Shown here one piece after another: positions 3,066-16,760 of a stretch of DNA of 25,316 nucleotides. The stretch is from positions 1-25,316 of IMG/VR virus record IMGVR_UViG_3300027896_000201. The stretch is one strand, 5' to 3'. The number at the start of each line of letters is the position of its first letter. Position 1 is the stretch's first letter. Under the pieces are notes generated by a model, which saw nothing but the letters and a program-made list of their open reading frames with translations, ran no database searches and was not told the DNA's origin. The position numbers and the translations under genes were made by a program. The stretch comes from a virus.

Positions 3066-5402
3066 CTAAAGATATTTAAAGTTATTAAGAGCCTCATCAA
3101 TAGTGACAAAATCAATCCCTTGGGCAATAGCATAAGCAACTACCTCACTCCAGCCTGCTGCCTTAGGGGCAGTGTATGCGTGCATAGTGAATACAAGATA
3201 TCTATCTTGGGCAATTGCTATGTCTATTTGAGCCTTAGCTGCAGCCACTCCTTCAGGGGTTGTCATGTCATAGCCATAGGAATAGGCAATATCTCCCAGG
3301 ATGATCTGCCAGTCATAAAAATTCATAGCAGCTGGATTCGTTCCTTCAGTTGCTGCAATGATATGCCCATTGTAAGATCTATAGTACTGCCTTGCCAGAT
3401 CCCTCAGGTCAACTGCATTCCTGTTAACTCCATGAGGAATGAGAGTCTTGCAAGTTATGCCATAGCTTTCAATCAGATCCTGAGTAAGTATGAGCTTAGC
3501 CTCAATCTGAGCCTTTGTCATTAAAGTCCAGTTCTCGTTCACCCCATGATTACAAATCTCCCATCCAGCTGCAAGAAGCCTCTGAACCTGTACCCATGAT
3601 AAGTAAGTACCTGAAGTCCCTACATCCAGAGGCAAAATGGCATTCACCCCAACAAGCCCAAGAGCATCCATGAGAGGCTTCCATCCAGTAAAGCAATCAG
3701 CAAGGCTATCATCATACCTGAGAGTCATCATAGGTTTGCTTGATTTTTTCTCTCCTATCTTCAGATATCCATCAGAGTCATAAGTGACAGCCCCGTATTC
3801 ATCAAGCACAGCAGCAATGATGTCACCAGTGAAATTGAATATTTTCTTCTGATTAATACCTGACTTGTCAATAGTGTAAAGGAATATTGACTGGAGAGAT
3901 GTTCTGCTTTCCTCCTCAATGGAATTATCATCCATCTCAACAAAGAGTTTCCCTTTATAACCTACATTCAGCATATTAATGAGACTCCTTTGATTGAGCT
4001 CCCTGATATAAAAATCCTTAGTATTTGAAGAATCATAATCTTTTAATTTTGTAGCAGTCCCATTAAGAGTGAGGCTCAGGTTTATGATTGATGCCTCTGT
4101 GATTGTTGTGTCATATTTTGTCTCAAAGATAAGAGAGTTACTGTTATGCATCAAGGTAATCCCTATCTCATTAAAAGCATAGGCATTGGCATAAACAAAG
4201 TCATAGGCTGTGTAAAACAAATTTGTCCTCCATGTGACTGTGGCTGTTATTCCATTAACTGTGACAGATGCTGTGCCTGAAGTTCCAGACAAGGCAATTA
4301 CTGCTCTCTTGTCAGCCCTTGCAATACTCTTCCAGATTGTTGCATTTGATCTGTCAAAGAATGCATCTGTGAATCTGATTTTGCTATCTGTTAAATTATG
4401 GTTTAGTAGATTCGCTGCAGGAGTTGCCACTTCCCCGTAAACAGTAGCTGATGCAATTTGCAAAGTCCTTAATATTTTACTGCCAGCATAGCTATTGCAA
4501 ATTATTATAGGTTCAGCTGATTTGTCTATATGAGTGTAAACTGAGCAACCATGATCCAGCAACCAAGAGGAGGCAGATCCATATGATCTCTCAAAAGTCA
4601 TGGCTGCCATTGCGTTGAAGTGCTGGGCATTCCCAGAAACATCAGTGCCATCATAGATGAGGGGCTGATGGATCTGGAGATCTGTTAAATAAGAATCATC
4701 TCTGCACTGAGCAAGAGACTTGATGGCTGAGAACTTCTTGAAGTTGAGAGAAGCTATATGGTCTGAGTAGCAGGGCCTAAAATAAATCTCATTATCATCA
4801 TTATTAAAAGTCCAAGACGAAATATCAAGATCTACTATGCTTGTGCCAAGAATTGAATCATCTGATGATTTATAAAAGTCACAACTGATAGTCTTGGCTA
4901 TCCCATCAATCCTGAGGAAAAGTTCAAAATATCCCTGCCCCCTGAAAGTTGCATTGAATAAAGTGGGATATGTAATATTCAGATAAGATTTGTTTGTGCC
5001 ATCTCCAGCACTAAAATGAAGAATTCCATTGAAGATATTGAACTGGACACCCCTGCTTGTTGAGTTGATTGTTGATTGCCCAAACTCAAATAGACCTTTC
5101 TCTGCCCCTGATTCACTGGCATCAGAGACAAGTCTATATTTACAATAAATAGTGTATGTGCCTCCATCAAAAAGTCTCTCAGATGCCCTTGTCTTGTCTC
5201 CAGCAAAATAACCAACCCCATTCCCCAGCCATTCAGGAGTCAGGATTGTATTTACAGACCCATAATCATCCACTAAGGAGAGTCCTGATCTTGATCTTAT
5301 CATCATAGAGAGATCTGGATAATAAGGCACAACTGGCACTCTTGTCTGCTGGAGCTCAAGAGTAAAAACCTTAGGATTTGTATGAGTTAATAAAAACTTC
5401 AT
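3066..5402 (-). CDS. Tail spike/fibre with C-terminal polysaccharide deacetylase-like domain
   Basis: A 778-aa adhesin. Residues about 60-220 have a LamG/concanavalin-like pattern (GYFAGDKTRASE... GTYTIYCKYRL ... GYFELFLRIDG). The middle is beta-rich with no clear family. From about residue 557 to the end the sequence resembles the carbohydrate esterase 4 (NodB) fold: MMTLRYDDSLADC (the Asp-Asp motif), EICNHGVNEN (first metal His), KTLIPHG, and LVFTMHAY near the end. The HxxxH motif is incomplete: glutamate stands where the second histidine belongs. It probably binds and de-esterifies a surface glycan during adsorption. It lies after the hub and before the lysis genes, the usual place of receptor-binding proteins. 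Activity is inferred; the domain could be a non-catalytic glycan binder. Confidence 0.75.
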   Translation of the reverse strand: MKFLLTHTNPKVFTLELQQTRVPVVPYYPDLSMMIRSRSGLSLVDDYGSVNTILTPEWLGNGVGYFAGDKTRASERLFDGGTYTIYCKYRLVSDASESGAEKGLFEFGQSTINSTSRGVQFNIFNGILHFSAGDGTNKSYLNITYPTLFNATFRGQGYFELFLRIDGIAKTISCDFYKSSDDSILGTSIVDLDISSWTFNNDDNEIYFRPCYSDHIASLNFKKFSAIKSLAQCRDDSYLTDLQIHQPLIYDGTDVSGNAQHFNAMAAMTFERSYGSASSWLLDHGCSVYTHIDKSAEPIIICNSYAGSKILRTLQIASATVYGEVATPAANLLNHNLTDSKIRFTDAFFDRSNATIWKSIARADKRAVIALSGTSGTASVTVNGITATVTWRTNLFYTAYDFVYANAYAFNEIGITLMHNSNSLIFETKYDTTITEASIINLSLTLNGTATKLKDYDSSNTKDFYIRELNQRSLINMLNVGYKGKLFVEMDDNSIEEESRTSLQSIFLYTIDKSGINQKKIFNFTGDIIAAVLDEYGAVTYDSDGYLKIGEKKSSKPMMTLRYDDSLADCFTGWKPLMDALGLVGVNAILPLDVGTSGTYLSWVQVQRLLAAGWEICNHGVNENWTLMTKAQIEAKLILTQDLIESYGITCKTLIPHGVNRNAVDLRDLARQYYRSYNGHIIAATEGTNPAAMNFYDWQIILGDIAYSYGYDMTTPEGVAAAKAQIDIAIAQDRYLVFTMHAYTAPKAAGWSEVVAYAIAQGIDFVTIDEALNNFKYL

Positions 5403-5768: not shown

Positions 5769-7280
5769 TTATAGTCCATACTTTGCCTTCAGATAATTAT
5801 AAATCAATGCTTCATCCCCAGCAGAATCAGCAAGTTTTCTGGAGACTATCTCCTTGACTTCAATATTGCTAAATGTAGAGGCATAGTTTCCTTGCACTCC
5901 AATGGTAAGACCTCCTGCATTGTTTGCTCCAAAATTCCCTGTTATCGGTGTTCCTGCGTTTACTATAAGTTTAGATGAAGCACCATTGAAAAGAATCCTG
6001 ACAATGCTCCAAGTATTTACGACAAGATCAGCATTCTCAGCCCCAATAGTGCCAGCATATCCCCTGATTCTTGGAGTCGTGGCACTCTGATAGAGTCTAT
6101 TTGTATTGATTGAAGTACCATCAATAATTGTGTCATTTAATGTCCAAGTCACTTGCCTCATCACCATGTAGATAAAGTGTGGCTGATTAAGTGTAAGCAC
6201 TGGGGTTGTCATATAGTTATCTACTCCATCAAATAATCCTGCAACTGGCCTGAAGGATAAAGTCCCTTGAGCTAAATGATTCCCAAGCACTCTCTTAACC
6301 TTATTATTAGAATCCAATGCGTAAACATCAGCAGCAGCAAAAATATCCCCTATTCCGCAACCTGTAAAAAAGTGATTTGTTTGAGTTGCTGTTATCTCAT
6401 AAACTCCATATTTAACACAATTCCCTGAAGCTTCTTCAGATCCTCTGGAGCTCTTCCCCACAAGCATATCATACCAAGCTTCATCAGCCCCTCCCCTTGT
6501 CAAGACATCATCAGCAGTGGCTGGTATGTACCATCCAAATCCATTGCCATCATTTATAACAAGGGGATGGGTAATATTGTTTGAGACTGTCTGCCCTGAG
6601 AAGGATTCAGTGGCTATCCCTCCCACAAGTCCCTTCAATTGATTTGATACTGGCTTTGTATATGAAACTGTGACTGCATCTGCATAAGCATATGCCACAG
6701 ATACTGTGAGGATCACAGTTGATCCAACCACCTCAGCCAGAGAGATTGTCTTGCCAGCCAGAGTGAAGTCAGTTGTGGCAGGAGTGGATGTCTCATCCAG
6801 TGCCTGATCCATTGTAATGACAACTTTTGTGGGTAGAAGCTGAACTATTGCAGCACTTACAAAGACTGGAGCTGTCCCATGGGTCAATTGCTCAAGCAGA
6901 CCAGATCCCTGAATAGATCCTGAGTAATTCATTGCCTGCTCAGTATCTCTGACTATTTTTATATTATTTATTGTGCCAGATCCTGTCCAGCCATCAGCAC
7001 TGTCATCAGTGGGCTTGAATTTGATTGTCGCTGGAGTTGCCCCTGCAATAGCCAGAGCCATGATCTCCTCAGCCCCAAGACCTACCCCACTCTCATCATA
7101 TCTTCCCTCAAAAGAGATCTCCCACTTTCTAAGTCCCTTGAGATGATCAGCATTGCCCCCAGAGTCCTTGGTTGTCAGGTCTGCCAGATCCTGCTCAGTT
7201 GTCAGGACAGCTCCAGTGGCATAAAGGATCTTATTTGAGTCATGATACACCGCAAAGAGTGTCCCGTTTATTGTGCTCAT
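5769..7280 (-). CDS. Third tail-tube paralog, fused to Ig-like and LamG-like domains
   Basis: A 503-aa chimera. Residues 1-130 clearly align with the two major tail proteins at 13793-14194 and 13024-13788: M.(T/K)ING/ATL at the start, EQDL.D...K(D/E)S.G.A(D/E)H..GLR, FEGRYDESG, and a final SGSIQG.G. Residues about 133-235 look like a bacterial Ig-like SwmB type domain (FVSAAIVQLLPTKVVI ... AVTVSYTKP). From about 240 to the end a LamG-like fold is likely (FDGVDNYMTTPVLTL, then strands to LKAKYGL). It lies in the adhesion region, 6 kb from the other tube genes, so the tube domain may have become an anchor displaying glycan-binding domains on or at the tip of the tail. It could instead assemble as a minor tube subunit. 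Confidence 0.75.
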   Translation of the reverse strand: MSTINGTLFAVYHDSNKILYATGAVLTTEQDLADLTTKDSGGNADHLKGLRKWEISFEGRYDESGVGLGAEEIMALAIAGATPATIKFKPTDDSADGWTGSGTINNIKIVRDTEQAMNYSGSIQGSGLLEQLTHGTAPVFVSAAIVQLLPTKVVITMDQALDETSTPATTDFTLAGKTISLAEVVGSTVILTVSVAYAYADAVTVSYTKPVSNQLKGLVGGIATESFSGQTVSNNITHPLVINDGNGFGWYIPATADDVLTRGGADEAWYDMLVGKSSRGSEEASGNCVKYGVYEITATQTNHFFTGCGIGDIFAAADVYALDSNNKVKRVLGNHLAQGTLSFRPVAGLFDGVDNYMTTPVLTLNQPHFIYMVMRQVTWTLNDTIIDGTSINTNRLYQSATTPRIRGYAGTIGAENADLVVNTWSIVRILFNGASSKLIVNAGTPITGNFGANNAGGLTIGVQGNYASTFSNIEVKEIVSRKLADSAGDEALIYNYLKAKYGL

Positions 7281-8315: not shown

Positions 8316-10643
8316 TCACTGTATTACTTCAATCATATCAATATCCCACTTCCTATTCTTCATGTCAAATGTCCCTGCATTGAAGATGAATTTTCTGGCA
8401 ATGCCCCCATAGAGATTAAGATCATCAACAAAGCAACCCAGAGGATCAACATGGGGATCAAGGTCATTCTCATCAAGATCATACACAGGAAGCTGCAGCA
8501 TGCATCTTGGCCTGCTTGTCTGGAGTCCTATTTCTCCCCCAATGAGTTCCAGCAAGGGATCTCCTTCAGATCCTCCTCTTGTATTCCATGCCTTAGTGGG
8601 AGCAATGGCATAAACAGGATCTCCCACATCATTGGGGATAATATTGGCAGCTGAATTTGTTGAGCCATCTATTGTGGCAGCTGCAAAATCAACTCCGGCC
8701 ACATTGGCTGTGAAATCAAAAGTGCCATCGTAATTATCAGTTAGGATCACAGATCCAAAACTTCCCCCATAACTTGAAATAAATCCTGCCACAGTCGTGG
8801 CTGGGTTTGTATTCCAGACCATCACATGGGAATAACCATTGCATCCCACATTGCAATTGAATGGGTAAGCTCCTTTTGTCACCCTGTCAACCCTTGCAAC
8901 CGCCCCAGTATATCCGGTAATATCTCCCTTCATGCCAAGAGCTCCGGCAAACTGCTCAATGATATTCTCAAAGTTCACATCCCCAAGCACTGGAGGGGAA
9001 GATAATTTTGTCACATCCCCCAGCACATAGTCCCTCTGGATCTCTTCCTTGTTTGCTGCATTGTCAATGACATATTGCCTGCTTAGGATATTGATGATAT
9101 TAACTGATTGAACTATCTTCATGTATCCGGTCTGGCTGAGATTCGGGGCTTCATGCCTGCCTCCTCTTCCCTGAAGCTTGGTCAGGTAAACCATCTGGGA
9201 TGTCTCCATTGAATAAGCATAGAACTTGATATTCTTGACAGCCACTCTCAAATTGGCATTATCTGCACAATAGACTTTTATTGTGATGTCTCCGCTATTA
9301 GGAAGGCCAAGGACAGTCTTCTTGAATGTACTCCATCCAGAACTTCCCACAGGGGCATCCTTGATAAATGGCATGGGCACAACTGACACTCCGGTCAGCC
9401 AGTCACAGAATTCATCTGCCCCGATTGCCATGAAATAAGCTCCCTGAGTGATTTCAATAAGGCATCCATGACCAGTGATGGGGGATGCTCCACTATTGAA
9501 GAAAAGAAAGTCAAATTCAAATCCAAGAGTATTGACTGCTCCTCCCCAACTGGCAACTGAATTTGCTCCAAAGGTTGCCTCAATCCCATAGGCATACGGC
9601 AGGGAACTATCCCAGTTATCTATATAACAACCATCTTTCTCTCCTGCAAGAATCGTGGAGAGAGGTGCAATATCCGTTGCCCCTATGGCAGTCCACCCCT
9701 TGAATGCTCCGGCAACAAAGTCCTCTCCCTTCATCTCCCAGCCTGTGATCCAGCTATCCTTCCATCCATAATCATGATTGAGTGTGATCTTCTTGGCAGC
9801 TGGGAGCATCATGAGAGATCCTCCATTTATATCCCTGAGATCTGCTGAGGGAGATGAGGATCTTTTGATGGATGTTACTGTTGATATAGTTGATCCTGAT
9901 TTTGTGGTTGCTCCAGTGAATGTCCTGACATATGCTGTAGTAACCATCTCAAGAGGCCTGTAAATTGTGAAGACCCCATATCTCTGCCTGATGAGGGCAT
10001 TCCATTTGCTGATGATCTTCTCCAGCACATCATAACAGGTATCATTCTTTGGATCAAAATCAGAACATTCAATATACTCCTGATCCATCGGGGAATCTGA
10101 TGTCCCAGAATCCATGTCCTCCTCATAGATATTGACAATCTCCTTGAAGGAAGTCACATTGATCTTCCCAAGGATGTCAAGGAGGATCTGGCTCTCAAAT
10201 TTCCTGCCAGTATATGGGACTCCATCTGAGATCTCATATTTGAAGTTCTTGAGGGCTGCCAGACCACAGACAGCTGTAATTGAGACTTCATAAGGATAGT
10301 CATTGTATGGCTCTGAGAAGCTACATGGAAGAATGTATCCCCTGAAATAAAGAGTATCTCCTGCTCCATAATAGATTGAGCACCTCATCTGGAGATCTGA
10401 CATTGTATAGAATTCCGAATACTGGAAGAGGCTTGATGCCATGACCCTGAGTGTGGCCTTTGTACCCCTGACCGGATTGTCAAGAATATCATCCCCATCA
10501 CTCAGGCATTCATAACTGGCCGGAGATCCAGAGGCCTTCATGGCAGTGATTGTACTTGAATAGCCATCAAGTTCAAAGTCCCACTTCCATGATAGTCCTT
10601 TGACATCATAATATTCACACCTGTATTTAGTTCCCCATGCCAT
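8316..10643 (-). CDS. Tail hub/baseplate protein (distal tail or tail-associated)
   Basis: A 775-aa protein placed directly after the tape measure, where siphoviruses encode distal-tail and hub proteins. The N-terminus (MAWGTKYRCEYYD, then GYILPCSFSEPYND and SDSPMDQEYIECSDF) is of a kind I associate with large tail proteins of Bacteroidota phages. The first 240 residues form a beta-rich part likely equivalent to Dit/Tal hub domains (ILLDILGKI, YDVLEKIISKWNALIRQRYGVF). The middle contains lectin-like beta stretches, and the C-terminus ends with a conserved-looking ARKFIFNAGTFDMKNRKWDIDMIEV. Its ATG overlaps the tape-measure stop as TAATG. The hub role comes from position and general pattern, not from a diagnostic motif. 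Confidence 0.72.
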   Translation of the reverse strand: MAWGTKYRCEYYDVKGLSWKWDFELDGYSSTITAMKASGSPASYECLSDGDDILDNPVRGTKATLRVMASSLFQYSEFYTMSDLQMRCSIYYGAGDTLYFRGYILPCSFSEPYNDYPYEVSITAVCGLAALKNFKYEISDGVPYTGRKFESQILLDILGKINVTSFKEIVNIYEEDMDSGTSDSPMDQEYIECSDFDPKNDTCYDVLEKIISKWNALIRQRYGVFTIYRPLEMVTTAYVRTFTGATTKSGSTISTVTSIKRSSSPSADLRDINGGSLMMLPAAKKITLNHDYGWKDSWITGWEMKGEDFVAGAFKGWTAIGATDIAPLSTILAGEKDGCYIDNWDSSLPYAYGIEATFGANSVASWGGAVNTLGFEFDFLFFNSGASPITGHGCLIEITQGAYFMAIGADEFCDWLTGVSVVPMPFIKDAPVGSSGWSTFKKTVLGLPNSGDITIKVYCADNANLRVAVKNIKFYAYSMETSQMVYLTKLQGRGGRHEAPNLSQTGYMKIVQSVNIINILSRQYVIDNAANKEEIQRDYVLGDVTKLSSPPVLGDVNFENIIEQFAGALGMKGDITGYTGAVARVDRVTKGAYPFNCNVGCNGYSHVMVWNTNPATTVAGFISSYGGSFGSVILTDNYDGTFDFTANVAGVDFAAATIDGSTNSAANIIPNDVGDPVYAIAPTKAWNTRGGSEGDPLLELIGGEIGLQTSRPRCMLQLPVYDLDENDLDPHVDPLGCFVDDLNLYGGIARKFIFNAGTFDMKNRKWDIDMIEVIQ

Positions 10644-12340
10644 TATGTGCTCCTGCTGTTTGAATCTGCATATCTCCTGCTGGAGATATAAATATCCTTG
10701 CCTTGTATCTTGCCCTCCACAATAACCTTCAGATTTTGAGTGGTTGCTCCCATTGATGCCCCTCCTCCTGTGGACATTGCTCCTGATGAATAACTTTGAG
10801 AGCCCTTGGAGATTGCCCCTTTAATCAGTCCGGCAATTGCAATCATTGAAATTCCGGCTGCCAAGGCCACAGGCCACATGGCAGGATTTTGGAGTGTCTT
10901 CATGAATGCCATTGATGCCATTGCATATGAGATAAGGAGTTTACCCATCATTGATAAGAAGTCTGCAATCCCCTCAAGGAGGCTCTTGCCAAAATCTCCC
11001 CAATTCCCTGAGGACATTGCTGCAAATAGATTCTGTACTGTATCCATTGCAAGATCCACAAGTGCCTTCTTTCCATCCTGAAAAAGTTTCTCAACCTCAT
11101 TGAGATCCTTTGCCACTGCCTCCTTCATTGGGGCAAGAGGAGTCCCTACCTGTCCCTTGCCATTGACCCCTCCAAGTTTTTCCCACATTCCAGCCTGAAG
11201 TGCCTTAGTGAGTCCGGTATTATTGAATAAAGCCCCTCCTTCAATATTCAGCATATCAGGAGTGACTTTCTTTGTTGCCCCTGATAAGATATTTGGATTC
11301 ATCATTCCTGCCTGAAGGAGGCTCAGGTATTGCTTCAGATTTGCAATCCTTGCCTGCTCAAGAGATATTCCCACAACATCAGCAGCATTCATCCCCTTGA
11401 TCCCTTCTTCTGCTTGTGAGATCTCCTTTGTCAGATCTTCAATTGTCTTGATCTTCTCCTTCTCTGGAGCTGCAGGCTTGTTTGCAAGATTGTCAAGGAA
11501 GCCCATTGAGGACGGGAAGTTCTTATTCATCCAGTCCCTATTTGCCTGAGCAGCATTCTTATTTGTCTCTTCCTGATTCTTCTTGAATGCAGCATACTGG
11601 TCTGGAGTTCCATTAAGCTTCTGCCAGATGCTGAGATCCTTGTCAGCAAATATTGTTGCAATGTCACCAAGCCATTTGACAAGTGACTGAACAGCTGGGG
11701 AATTATTGATGAATGTGCCCCATGCCTCCTTTGCCTCAGTCCATTTAGTCCCCACTCTCTCCATCCTGATGGAGGCTGTATCAGCAACATCCCCCATCTG
11801 CTTGAGCTTGTCATTCACAAGCCCAATAAGCCCGTCAGAGGTCTGGAATGCTGAGTTTGCTTCCTTTGTTGCAAGACCTATCTGCACAAGACCTCTTGAT
11901 GACTGTCTGCCCACAGCATTGATCATCAGGCCTGCAAATTCAGCCACTGGCTTGCCCAGCCTGATTGCCTGGTTTGTTGCAAATGTGAGATAAGTTCCAA
12001 GATCCTTGAATGGGATGCCAAGAGACTGGGCTTTCAGGTACATCTGCATGAGTTCAGCCTCAGGGATCACTCCCCTTGTGGCCTTCCCCATCTCCTCAAG
12101 GATCTTCTTTGTCTCTCCTCCCATCTTGGAGAATGCAGTCTTGATGCCTTCAGTCTCAGCTGCAAGCTTCATGCATTCCACTGAGAAGTCAACCAAGGCC
12201 TTAGACCCAAATGCAATCCCTATGAATCCGGCAATCCTCTTTGCCCAAGAGCTCACAGATTTCTCGGAACTTTTGAGAGTGCCCTGAAGCTCAGTGCTGT
12301 CCCCAGATATTTTGACCCAGATCTTATTAAGTAGTCCCAT
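10643..12340 (-). CDS. Tail tape measure protein
   Basis: The 565-aa protein begins MGLLNKIWVKISGDSTELQ..L..SE.SV, the N-terminal pattern of tape measure proteins ('vkisgd...l...l..a'), with a helix/glycine-rich hydrophobic stretch after it (RIAGFIGIAFGSKALV). The central part is alpha-helical; near residues 470-515 there is a hydrophobic region (LLISYAMASMAFMKTL, WPVALAAGISMIAIAGLIKGAI) typical of the membrane-active part of tape measures. It follows the frameshifted tail chaperone pair, the universal position. Using about 1.5 angstrom per residue, the tail would be roughly 85 nm long, a rather short siphovirus tail. Confidence 0.88.
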   Translation of the reverse strand: MGLLNKIWVKISGDSTELQGTLKSSEKSVSSWAKRIAGFIGIAFGSKALVDFSVECMKLAAETEGIKTAFSKMGGETKKILEEMGKATRGVIPEAELMQMYLKAQSLGIPFKDLGTYLTFATNQAIRLGKPVAEFAGLMINAVGRQSSRGLVQIGLATKEANSAFQTSDGLIGLVNDKLKQMGDVADTASIRMERVGTKWTEAKEAWGTFINNSPAVQSLVKWLGDIATIFADKDLSIWQKLNGTPDQYAAFKKNQEETNKNAAQANRDWMNKNFPSSMGFLDNLANKPAAPEKEKIKTIEDLTKEISQAEEGIKGMNAADVVGISLEQARIANLKQYLSLLQAGMMNPNILSGATKKVTPDMLNIEGGALFNNTGLTKALQAGMWEKLGGVNGKGQVGTPLAPMKEAVAKDLNEVEKLFQDGKKALVDLAMDTVQNLFAAMSSGNWGDFGKSLLEGIADFLSMMGKLLISYAMASMAFMKTLQNPAMWPVALAAGISMIAIAGLIKGAISKGSQSYSSGAMSTGGGASMGATTQNLKVIVEGKIQGKDIYISSRRYADSNSRST

Positions 12341-13027
12341 CCCTGAACTGTATTAATTTTTTCCTAACTTCTTCAAGCTCCTCAGGGGATACTTTCTTCT
12401 CCATCTTGTCCTGCCTCTGGATCTTGTCATCCTTTATTTTGAAGATATCCCTTGGGCTGCTTGGTTTATCCTTGATATATGGATTGCCATTGATCATTGC
12501 AAAAACAAGTTCTCTCATGAGCCATGCAGTATTCCTCTCCCAATTCCTCCAGTATCCATCAACTGCCAGATAATATTCTGTCAAAGTGGAGAGCCTCCAT
12601 CTCTCCTCAGGCCAGCCCAGCTCCCCACAGGCAAATATCTTAAACTCCCTGAGGCTTACTTTTTTTTTAATGCCTCATCATTGGCCTGAGCCATATCCTT
12701 CAAATAACCAAGAAGTTTCTTCATCTCTTCCATGAAGATCTTCCTTGCTTCAGCGTTCATATATTCAGCCCAGAATGATCCCTTGATCTCTGAATACCTT
12801 GGCTTCTTATAAAGCTCCTTACAGGCTGCCATATATCCATTCCATAGCAGGGATGCATAGACATCAACCTCAGCATTCTCCCTGCCAAAAAGTTCCCCGA
12901 ATTCAACCCCCAAGTCATCACAGGTCATCTCAAGAGTCATGATCTTGAATAAGAATGGGACTTTCTTCTCCCTGAAGATTATCCCGTACTTGAAGGGCAT
13001 TCTTAACCAGACAATATCTGCTCTCAT
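12327..13027 (-). CDS. Tail assembly chaperone long form by -1 frameshift (gpGT-like)
   Basis: The 123-codon upstream frame ends ...ALKKK-stop on a run of nine A (12660-12668). Slipping back one base on it avoids the stop and joins the -1 frame, which is open to the stop at 12327 (about 110 residues more, about 233 aa in total). The added part reads VSLREFKIFACGELGWP, then LTEYYLAVDGYWRNW, and ends in a charged helix. It has no good start of its own: only a TTG at 12584, after the conserved-looking part. A short and a frameshifted long chaperone between tail tube and tape measure is the conserved arrangement of lambda G/GT. The long form binds the tape measure and recruits tube subunits. It overlaps the tape-measure start by 14 bases. 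Confidence 0.82.
12605..12668 (-). promoter_or_regulatory. Programmed -1 ribosomal frameshift signal
   Basis: The mRNA has a slippery run A9 (12660-12668), a 5-base spacer GTAAG that contains the zero-frame stop, and then a perfect 7-bp stem CCTCAGG/CCTGAGG (12648-12654 with 12605-12611) closed by a 36-base loop. Slippery site, short spacer and downstream stem are the classical parts of a -1 signal. The stem could be extended into a pseudoknot, which I cannot test by eye. Confidence 0.7.
12656..13027 (-). CDS. Tail assembly chaperone short form (gpG-like)
   Basis: A 123-aa helical protein starting at ATG 13027 (MRADIVWLRMPFKYG), which overlaps the preceding stop as ATGA; a longer frame from 13102 would lie inside the upstream tail gene and is rejected. 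It has a conserved-looking TCDDLGVEFGELF, then YASLLWNGYMAACK, and a charged helical end (ALKKK). Together with the frameshifted form it should coat the tape measure before the tube polymerises. It is absent from the finished virion in known phages. I see no motif beyond helical pattern; the call rests on position, size and the A9 slippery end. Confidence 0.8.
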   Translation of the reverse strand: MRADIVWLRMPFKYGIIFREKKVPFLFKIMTLEMTCDDLGVEFGELFGRENAEVDVYASLLWNGYMAACKELYKKPRYSEIKGSFWAEYMNAEARKIFMEEMKKLLGYLKDMAQANDEALKKK

Positions 13028-13788
13028 GATGCAACAAATTTGAATACATAAATCGGGGAAGTTGACAGGTTTGATGCCCCTGTATTGCTGATATTCAGGC
13101 ATCCAGTCTGGGTACTTGTCACAGTAAGGGTCACAATATTGAGCCCAGCTGTTAATGTGACCACATTGGAGATTGCAGACCCTCCCACTTGGAAGATGGC
13201 TACATCAGGAAGCTGCCCTGAATTCAGTGTCACAAATAAAACAACCTTGATCACATCTCCATTGCTGACAGAGAATGAATTGCTCTTTGCATATGCAGTC
13301 CCTGCAAGATTGATCAGTGAGCTGAAGGCTTTATTTGCATCTGTATGGGTATCGTAATCAGTCCCTCCTGAGTCAGGATCTGTCAGTAGATCTGCTGAAG
13401 TTCCCTTGAGCTGGTAAAAAGCCCCCTGAACCTTCATGCTTCCACTCAGAGACATCACACCTTCCTGAGGGGCATCTATCTTGATTGAAGCCATATCAAC
13501 CTCAGCGACCATAGGGAAGGCCACTCCTCCCACAATTGTGAGAAGCAATGATGTCCTTCCTGTGATATAGGCCATTAACTCCCCGGCTGAGATCCCAGTT
13601 GTGGAGAATAATGCATCAAAGTCCACAGAGGCATTCCTGAGCCCGTTTATATGCTCAGCCCATCCTCCAGATTCCTTATTGCTGGCATCAGGAAGATCCT
13701 GCTCCACAGAGACAGAACACCCCTTCTGAGCAGCAATGACAACCCCATCTGCATAGAGCAGAAGGAGTGTTGCATTGATCTTGCTCAT
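13024..13788 (-). CDS. Second tail-tube protein with C-terminal beta extension
   Basis: The 254-aa protein is a paralog of the gene just upstream: start M.KIN.TL, then the shared EQDLPD..NKES.GWAEHINGLRN and a final SGSMK..GA. This covers residues 1 to about 130. Residues about 135-254 are an additional beta-rich domain (FSVSNGDVIKVVLFVTLN, AGLNIVTLTVT) resembling the Ig-like or carbohydrate-binding decorations seen on lambda gpV and other tube proteins. It differs from its neighbour in the middle (ALFSTTGISAGELM replaces EGKYDESGSGITPNE). It starts 4 bases after its neighbour's stop. It could be a decorated minor tube subunit or the main subunit; the sequence does not decide. Confidence 0.82.
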   Translation of the reverse strand: MSKINATLLLLYADGVVIAAQKGCSVSVEQDLPDASNKESGGWAEHINGLRNASVDFDALFSTTGISAGELMAYITGRTSLLLTIVGGVAFPMVAEVDMASIKIDAPQEGVMSLSGSMKVQGAFYQLKGTSADLLTDPDSGGTDYDTHTDANKAFSSLINLAGTAYAKSNSFSVSNGDVIKVVLFVTLNSGQLPDVAIFQVGGSAISNVVTLTAGLNIVTLTVTSTQTGCLNISNTGASNLSTSPIYVFKFVAS

Positions 13789-13792
13789 GGCC

Positions 13793-14194
13793 TTATACTG
13801 TTAATGCCAGAGCTCCGTTTCCTTTGATGCTTCCAGAATAGCTTATCCCCTGCTCCTGATCTGCAGAGAGCTTAATGCTCTGGAATGTGCCATTCCCTTG
13901 CCATGCCTTGGTTGCTCCAGTTGTGGGCATGAAATGAATAACAGTATCGGCTGACCTTCCAATGATGGCAGCCATGATCTCATTAGGAGTGATGCCAGAT
14001 CCCGATTCATCATACTTGCCTTCAAAGTCAATTGACCAGTTCCTCAGGCCATTGATATGCTCTGCCCATCCAGCACTCTCCTTGTTTGTTACATCAGGGA
14101 GATCCTGTTCAAGATTGAGAGAGCAGTTTGTCAGGCTCAGTACCTTGTCCGAGCCACTGTAAACTGCATAAAGTGTTCCGTTAATTTTTGCCAT
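13793..14194 (-). CDS. Major tail (tube) protein
   Basis: The 133-aa protein has the compact tail-tube fold of the phi13/TP901-1-like major tail family, as far as can be read: MAKINGTLYAVY, EQDLPDVTNKES, GLRNWSIDFEGKYDESG, then alternating strands to SYSGSIKGNG. It forms the hexameric rings of the tail tube. It follows the tail terminator and precedes a paralog. The leader AAGAAG before ATG is purine-rich rather than a clear Shine-Dalgarno. It is the shortest of the three copies and therefore probably the basic tube unit. Confidence 0.87.
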   Translation of the reverse strand: MAKINGTLYAVYSGSDKVLSLTNCSLNLEQDLPDVTNKESAGWAEHINGLRNWSIDFEGKYDESGSGITPNEIMAAIIGRSADTVIHFMPTTGATKAWQGNGTFQSIKLSADQEQGISYSGSIKGNGALALTV

Positions 14195-14198
14195 CTTC

Positions 14199-14636
14199 TT
14201 ACTCTATTAAAAAGTTATAACTATCTATTATCCTGCTTCTTGAAATACCATTTGCTGCCTGTTCAGTAAATTCATTCTTGACATTGAATGAGAATACTAT
14301 CAAGGTCAAAGTTGATCCAATTGAGAAGGTTGACCCCTTACTTGTCTTCAGTAATCTTCTGACCACATTAAGGATGGCATAGGCCAGCTTCTTGTCTGCC
14401 TGCATCCTGCTCTCATCAACAACCTCCACAAGCACAGTGCCTGAATACATGAATCCATCCTTTGTCCCATCCTCAGAGTGAAGGACATCATGGACATGGA
14501 CATAGATCTCAGCTGATGGCTTTGGTATTGATTTATAGACAGGATATGTCACCCCTCCATAGGTCACATGACCTGAAAGCACTGTGACAATGCCATCAAT
14601 AAGATCATAGCTGATATCAACAAGTTCTGTGCTCAT
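14199..14636 (-). CDS. Tail terminator/completion protein
   Basis: A 145-aa protein in the position of the tail terminator, between the HK97 gp10-like gene and the tube. Features fit that small alpha/beta family: a start helix with DLIDGIVTVLSG, a strand VTYPVYKSIPK, then EIYVHVHDV, GTVLVEVVDE, and an amphipathic helix YAILNVVRRLLK. It would cap the tail tube and join the neck. It overlaps its upstream neighbour by 4 bases (ATGA). No catalytic motif is expected. Confidence 0.75.
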   Translation of the reverse strand: MSTELVDISYDLIDGIVTVLSGHVTYGGVTYPVYKSIPKPSAEIYVHVHDVLHSEDGTKDGFMYSGTVLVEVVDESRMQADKKLAYAILNVVRRLLKTSKGSTFSIGSTLTLIVFSFNVKNEFTEQAANGISRSRIIDSYNFLIE

Positions 14637-16223: not shown

Positions 16224-16760
16224 TCAATACCTCTGTCCGATTTTAATCATCAGCCTTGTGATCACAGCAGCTTTGCCTGCATCAGATCCTGTACAAGAGA
16301 CTTTGATATATCTCCAAAGCACTCCGGTTGATACATCAGCAAGGGAAGCCACAGCTGGAGTTGTACCGGCCTGTTGTGCTGCTGGCAGCCACATGGTTGT
16401 GGGATGGAAGAGCACAGTATCAAGCTTGACCCAGTAAGATTTGTCAATACTCCCATAGGTTGTGACAGTCACATGGTTGCCCACAGTTCTGGCAGTGGTC
16501 AGAGAATAGGCAAGAGATGTGTCATACTCAACCACAAGCTGGTAATAGTTCAGCGTTGGCTTGGCAAGATCAAAGATCCAGTACTTGGTTGCTGTCCCTC
16601 CTATTGTATCCTTGATGCAAGTTGCTGTGTGAGTGGCATAATTAAATGCAGTGTAAGAAGTTACCCCTGCAGGCAGGACATAAGTCGTGCCTGAAGTCTG
16701 AGCCTGCATCCCCATTGAGAATGCAAGCAGGATTGTGATAAATGCTACAAATTTTTTCAT
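16224..16760 (-). CDS. Exported beta-rich protein in the head operon
   Basis: A 178-aa protein with a clear signal peptide: MKKF, hydrophobic VAFITILLAF, then MGMQAQ with likely cleavage after AQ. The mature part is beta-rich (YYQLVVEYDTS, HVTVTTYGS, SYWVKLDTVLF, RYIKVSCTGS) and contains two cysteines. I recognise no family; the ending with a strand pattern IKVSC...ITRLMIKIG recalls ligand-binding beta-sandwiches. It lies between major capsid protein and a strong terminator, so should be made in large amounts. Export by Sec does not fit an ordinary capsid component; it may be a secreted or cell-surface factor made late in infection. Its start has a strong Shine-Dalgarno, unlike its neighbours. 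Confidence 0.8.
   Translation of the reverse strand: MKKFVAFITILLAFSMGMQAQTSGTTYVLPAGVTSYTAFNYATHTATCIKDTIGGTATKYWIFDLAKPTLNYYQLVVEYDTSLAYSLTTARTVGNHVTVTTYGSIDKSYWVKLDTVLFHPTTMWLPAAQQAGTTPAVASLADVSTGVLWRYIKVSCTGSDAGKAAVITRLMIKIGQRY

Follow-up and report, generated by a model that had tools for sequence, protein, structure and literature searches.

The window is a 25,316-base viral record from IMG/VR, analysed over its whole length, with the structural genes on the minus strand. Read from the right, these are terminase, portal, head morphogenesis, protease, capsid and connector genes, followed by a tail completion gene, two tail-tube genes (TTP1 and TTP2), two probable chaperones, a tape measure and a hub, as assigned from position and a reading of the translations. 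A 178-aa protein with a signal-peptide-like start is encoded between the capsid and connector genes (16224-16760, minus strand). A 778-aa protein (3066-5402, minus strand) has a weak polysaccharide-deacetylase match (E 0.0011, below the cut-off) and is possibly a tail protein acting on surface sugars. The tail features are as follows:

14199..14636, minus strand: tail terminator or completion protein, directly upstream of TTP1 (position only; weak phrog_6430 match)
13793..14194, minus strand: TTP1, plain tail-tube protein of 133 aa, ring domain only (PF06199, phrog_1407, AlphaFold2 model)
13024..13788, minus strand: TTP2, second tail-tube paralogue of 254 aa, ring domain plus extension (PF06199, 44% identity to TTP1, own tree clade)
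13411..13788, minus strand: TTP2 ring domain, residues 1-126 (PF06199 match, locus profile scan, model)
13027..13404, minus strand: TTP2 C-terminal beta-sandwich, residues 129-254, carbohydrate-binding-module-like (predicted structure)
12656..13027, minus strand: tail-assembly chaperone, directly downstream of TTP2 (position only; overlaps the TTP2 stop)
10643..12340, minus strand: tape-measure protein of 565 aa (position; phrog_32115, function not annotated)
8316..10643, minus strand: tail hub or tip protein of 775 aa (position; phrog_33803, function not annotated)
5769..7280, minus strand: TTP3, 503 aa, with a third tube-like ring domain joined to adhesin-like domains (PF06199, 50% identity to TTP1, inside the TTP1 clade)
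6891..7280, minus strand: TTP3 ring domain, residues 1-130 (PF06199 and identity to TTP1)
5772..6236, minus strand: TTP3 C-terminal module, residues 349-503 (54% identity to a 238-aa protein encoded by another phage, L124)

TTP1 and TTP2 are separated by 4 bases (13789-13792), and the TTP2 stop codon overlaps the start of the next gene as ATGA. This gene at the chaperone position follows TTP2 in the same order in loci L005, L013 and L020. In the window and in the other loci listed, PF06199 genes sit between tail completion genes on one side and chaperones and tape measure on the other.

In a BLASTP comparison, TTP1 and TTP2 are identical at 57 of 129 positions (44%, E 5e-32). All three ring proteins exceed the curated cut-off of 23.8 bits for PF06199 (Phage_tail_2), with 39.6 bits for TTP1 (E 6.6e-10), 27.5 for TTP2 (E 3.5e-06) and 25.3 for TTP3, and both TTP1 (E 3.1e-20) and TTP2 match phrog_1407, 'major tail protein'. 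By these matches TTP1 and TTP2 are tandem tail-tube paralogues of PF06199, which bears out the reading of 13024-14194 in the initial annotation. Identity is low in residues 13-26 and 80-102, and the TTP2 ring departs locally from TTP1, with gaps near alignment columns 62-63 and 81-83.

Prediction of each structure alone, suggested earlier as a check, gave a tube fold for TTP1 and a sandwich for the TTP2 extension, but a poor TTP2 ring. The AlphaFold2 model of TTP1, built with 56 related sequences, has a pLDDT of 86, and its top structure matches are tail tubes (GTA, monocin, 80alpha, SPP1 and lambda). The closest solved fold is the RcGTA tail tube (Z 14.2, rmsd 2.1, 124 aa), and the Listeria monocin tail tube, MttP, gives Z 14.0 (rmsd 2.9, 129 aa). 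The TTP2 model, built with 16 sequences, has a pLDDT of 73.8, with residues 30-51 of the ring part below 50; its fold-comparison rows cover residues 128-254, the ring being assigned by sequence only.

The beta-rich extra domain of TTP2 that had been noted initially (about residue 127 to 254) is indeed predicted as a beta-sandwich over residues 129-254, and residues 141-250 are well predicted (block-mean pLDDT 74-92). Residues 129-254 align with the CBM4 domain 1gu3 with Z 10.6 (rmsd 2.5, 113 aa), and the extension scores Z 10.5 against CBM86 (6sgf) and 10.2 against a porphyran CBM (8xmz). Over residues 128-254, Z is 9 to 10.6 to CBM4, 86, 29 and others, with Vip3 and Eph domains scoring alike. 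When an SPP1-type Ig/FN3 decoration was considered, CBMs were among the best matches of the sandwich and an Ig fold is also conceivable; no Pfam family matches the extension. The model suggests a carbohydrate-binding-module-like (CBM-like) fold, and a shared fold alone does not establish sugar binding. Among the best 80 of 296 loci, 30 of the 31 complete TTP2s have an extension of 122-134 residues, and in several dN/dS comparisons the extension evolves faster. At L063:10381-10860, a TTP2 orthologue with an intact 136-aa ring domain has no extension, a natural deletion of the decoration. Decoration alone therefore cannot explain the retention of TTP2, and its ring probably has some structural role as well.

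Conservation was followed in the same best 80 of 296 loci, so that clade counts are lower bounds. A profile scan of these fetched loci found at least 35 of the TTP1 clade, the window included. In two, L006 and L011, the sequence stops 101 and 44 bases past TTP1, and these were left out of the pair count. TTP2 directly follows TTP1 in all 33 loci with room downstream, some of them near-duplicates, with gaps of -1 to 32 bases; it is complete in 31 of the 33, and cut by the contig end in L008 and L014. More distant relatives (e.g. L027-L030 and L034-L037) carry one plain tube gene, then chaperones and tape measure. In a tree of 103 ring domains, obtained from 150 distinct ones by clustering at 90%, TTP2 forms a supported group (24 rows, SH-aLRT 98), TTP1 together with the TTP3 of the window forms another (26 rows, SH-aLRT 99), and the two are sisters (90). 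This topology indicates that TTP1 and TTP2 both arose from one old duplication, with TTP3 coming from the TTP1 side. Among genome pairs with a TTP1 dS of 0.05-1.6, to which the dN/dS list was confined, omega is 0.07-0.51 for TTP1 (22 pairs) and 0.06-0.29 for the TTP2 ring in the 12 of these 22 pairs without dS saturation. These values indicate purifying selection on both genes; a conserved pair selected in this way had been named beforehand as support for a two-component tube.

A genome_contigs scan of cellular genomes found one relative, L053, which lies in a Bacteroidota MAG and carries the pair. Since a full TTP2 occurs in this MAG only among 395 genomes of its phylum, with marginal partial matches in two others, the host assignment is weak; the hosts of the pair clade, a family of environmental tailed viruses, are probably Bacteroidota. 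Searching 50,697 phage records with TTP2 gave matches in 24, none covering 80% of the protein and, among the matches listed, to the ring part only. TTP1 matches 19 records of phage isolates, all below 60% identity.

If TTP1 and TTP2 had evolved separately, the two proteins of one genome should be no more alike than those of different genomes. This was evaluated in 25 genomes, hand-picked from the 33 pair loci with near-duplicates dropped, and ten clades for the one-per-clade and leave-out tests were hand-assigned from the ring-domain tree. In the hinge loop (residues 27-52), TTP1-TTP2 identity is 0.615 within and 0.521 across genomes (excess 0.095), and in residues 103-122 it is 0.400 within and 0.297 across (excess 0.103). 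The value for 27-52 was reached in none of 5000 label permutations and, in phylogeny-aware simulations that let the two genes evolve independently along the tree of the genomes, in 0/500 (z 9.3); the value for 103-122 was also reached in 0/500 (z 8.2). With one genome per clade the count is 0/100 for both segments, and the signal holds when any clade is omitted. For the control segments, the excess and the simulations reaching it are -0.001 and 277/500 (13-26), 0.006 and 61/500 (80-102), 0.028 and 98/500 (53-66), and 0.019 and 30/500 (123-131). The N-terminal 12 residues (0.051, z 4.3) and helix 67-79 (0.043, z 3.5) covary too, so that the signal is not limited to the two loops.

In the models, residues 31-50 form the loop between two long strands, and residues 112-116 join the last two long strands. 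Among solved tubes, the largest contact between rings is in most cases that of the beta2-beta3 loop, which is also the chief partner of the N-loop (PMC8718954), and in JBD30 loops 217-227 of the next ring hold the hinge loop between them (PMC11445458). Judged from the order of secondary structure elements, not from superposed coordinates, segments 27-52 and 103-122 should lie on opposite axial faces of the ring. The matching contact loops suggest that both proteins are built into the same tail. As both faces match TTP1, TTP2 rings stacked among TTP1 rings are favored over a lone end ring. Covariation is mostly absent outside the axial loops; this is a weak pointer to homomeric rings and against freely mixed hexamers.

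The preferred reading, which we hold with a probability of about 0.6, is that TTP1 and TTP2 are subunits of one flexible tube, in which TTP2 stacks with TTP1 and carries its CBM-like domain on the outside. The neighbouring genes would yield two proteins that polymerise around the tape measure, TTP1 forming plain hexameric rings and TTP2 contributing rings, or subunits of rings, to this stack, with the beta-sandwich displayed on the tube exterior. Both proteins would then be found in the virion, as hexamers interspersed along the tube body. The displayed domains would bind sugars, probably giving weak reversible contact with those of the host surface, as in SPP1. TTP2 would thereby do the job of the frameshift-made long tube protein of SPP1 by means of a separate gene, whose dose and sequence can evolve apart. 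A mixed tube of plain and decorated rings was among the possibilities raised initially, and the covariation suggests that it fits.

The other possibility raised initially, a specialised initiator or last ring, would make TTP2 a single ring at one tube end (terminator or hub side) and leave the whole body to TTP1. It has some appeal: in RcGTA the fold of the tube protein recurs in the stopper, the terminator and the distal tail protein (PMC7296036), the TTP2 kept without an extension in L063 suggests a structural role, and TTP3, like far copies of another clade, adjoins hub genes. However, a lone end ring meets TTP1 by one axial face only, yet both segments match, and the TTP2 gene adjoins TTP1, not the hub. 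In well-known phages the distal tail protein gene lies between tape measure and hub, whereas here TTP2 precedes the tape measure and TTP3 follows the hub. We therefore regard an end ring as unlikely. A stronger doubt attaches to gene conversion between the tandem copies, by which likeness within genomes would come from sequence exchange and not from contacts. Copies 4 bases apart are good substrates for conversion, and in residues 103-122 identical codons are commoner within genomes (82/194) than across (1162/3486); elsewhere they are slightly commoner (207/508 against 4086/11162). In the hinge, however, identical codons are as frequent within genomes (148/375, 0.395) as across (2938/7520, 0.391), so conversion does not explain the likeness there, and the likeness is limited to some segments, with none in neighbouring ones. 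Some old conversion may have affected 103-122, and ancient exchange whose synonymous identity has since been lost is conceivable, while conversion as the general explanation is improbable. Lowest of all we place the reverse assignment, with TTP2 as the main tube protein, TTP1 minor and most of the tail decorated. The dose of the two is not fixed by sequence, and the tubes of lambda, T5 and YSD1 bear a projecting Ig-like domain (PMC9022992), but single-copy relatives carry only the TTP1-like plain gene, so that TTP1 looks ancestral, and this assignment is very improbable.

The initial annotation had counted only two copies, but a third ring domain opens the 503-aa protein at 5769-7280. The TTP3 ring is identical to TTP1 at 65 of 129 positions (50%, E 6e-42) and matches PF06199 over residues 17-130 (E 1.8e-05), with a SWM_repeat match below the cut-off on residues 136-210. 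From its place inside the TTP1 clade, TTP3 is an offshoot of the TTP1 side. It follows the hub gene and keeps recognisable versions of both contact segments (27-52 and 103-122). The L124 protein that resembles its C-terminal module is encoded just before a 540-aa protein, and a search of viral contigs with TTP3 found only this module, in that one other phage. For the C-terminal part, phmmer against PDB sequences gave nothing to E 1 and Pfam gave nothing; sequences of this kind can have a lectin (LamG-like) fold, which this part may share. TTP3 was rejected as a trait of the clade, as the 8 pair-clade records searched whole hold exactly two tube copies each. It may serve as a third such tube subunit, one with a different adhesin module. 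Tentatively, and with well under even odds, the tube could then be modular, with plain TTP1, CBM-bearing TTP2 and adhesin-bearing TTP3 as three ring proteins that can replace one another and share a co-evolving axial interface. If so, the gain of new genes could place further adhesins along the tube.

The common view is of the tail tube as a homopolymer whose decoration is encoded in frame or through a frameshift. The premise of the initial annotation, that a single protein usually makes up a siphovirus tube, needs qualifying by the SPP1 frameshift and by actinophage precedents. In SPP1, plain gp17.1 and C-terminally decorated gp17.1* form one tail in a ratio of 3:1, and the gp17.1* extension is dispensable (PMC8718954; PMC9022992). 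The likeness lies in two tube forms, plain and C-terminally decorated, predicted here from the genes. The SPP1 forms, however, come from one gene with a frameshift and have identical ring parts and an FN3 decoration, whereas here there are two diverged genes and a CBM-like domain; these are two complete ORFs, each with its own ATG, separated by the 4-base gap, unlike a product of SPP1-type frameshifting. In Skunavirus (936), carbohydrate-binding modules occur along the tube on part of the subunits (MTP and TpeX), and one TpeX bound host cells (PMC6669499). Those modules are displayed on part of the tube subunits, as proposed here for a domain that is CBM-like by prediction, and they come from one gene by frameshift in contrast to the second gene of the window. 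The neck passage structure of 936 phages was set aside as a tube-like precedent, since its start is BppU-like, not tube-like.

Separate genes occur in the cluster DJ actinophages, in which two major tail genes are present in all 56, with roles left undetermined in the account given (PMC12859696). In FortCran, of this cluster, the two proteins are 43% identical and one has a C-terminal extension (PMC12859696). Cluster EL also has two major tail genes, and features of this type are ascribed to AM, AU, AW, BI, CC and DJ as well (PMC11080557). The actinophages thus share with the window separate paralogous major tail genes, one with a C-terminal extension, but differ in having a gene between the first two tube genes and longer proteins, and the passages on these genes report no covariation test (PMC12859696). 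Microbacterium phage Count (L131:9016-11948) has three annotated major tail protein genes, the first with 480 similar places in 243 phage records, and is a cultured phage suited to the testing of multi-component tubes. RcGTA and the Listeria monocin, whose tube proteins are the solved folds closest to TTP1, are similar in fold; the RcGTA tube differs in consisting of five discs of one tube protein only (PMC7296036). Cellulophaga phage phi17:1, one of the isolates identified through portal similarity (30% identity), carries a tube gene of PF06199, but one only. Two apparent precedents were rejected. The second 'phage tail tube protein' of MW202897.1 (L126:28293-28673) is a PF11836 tail-assembly chaperone; the Pfam title of PF11836 itself says tail tube protein and is the likely source of the misnaming. 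The 'two major tail proteins' of JBD30 are two copies of one protein (PMC11445458).

Two-form tubes made by frameshift (SPP1, 936) and two or three major-tail genes in actinophages are thus already known, and among the literature matches listed for paralogous tube genes the two-gene form was not found in Bacteroidota phages. New here are the directly adjacent PF06199 genes, the CBM-like extension on one of them and the evidence for shared stacking faces. A two-gene tube across a clade would be another way to control tube decoration, and would suggest a possible way for phages with probable Bacteroidota hosts to hold on to sugar-coated cells over the full length of the tail. Covariation between paralogues would here also reveal how rings stack, and the same analysis offers a specific test where duplicate major-tail genes are unexplained, those of cultured actinophages included.

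Extra tube-domain genes are found outside the pair clade. A second clade (with L092, L102, L106, L107 and L112 among its members) has one or two more after the hub, which form their own branch (SH-aLRT 100), and in L065-L070, L084 and L108 the main tube gene is accompanied by an additional, independent short copy that lacks an extension. From these copies, tube-domain duplication is judged to be recurrent in these viruses. Tube-domain genes lie right after the hub at L092:8992-10033, L107:6410-7218, L106:5808-6608, L112:13316-14348 and L076:14015-15205, and some of the hub-adjacent genes carry inserted or C-terminal extra domains. At L034:1494-2720, one gene combines a gp17 tail-completion domain (PF11367) with a concanavalin-like lectin domain (PF13385, E 3.4e-12), and L035:6930-8156 looks like the same fusion; the neck ring of L034 may thus be decorated too.
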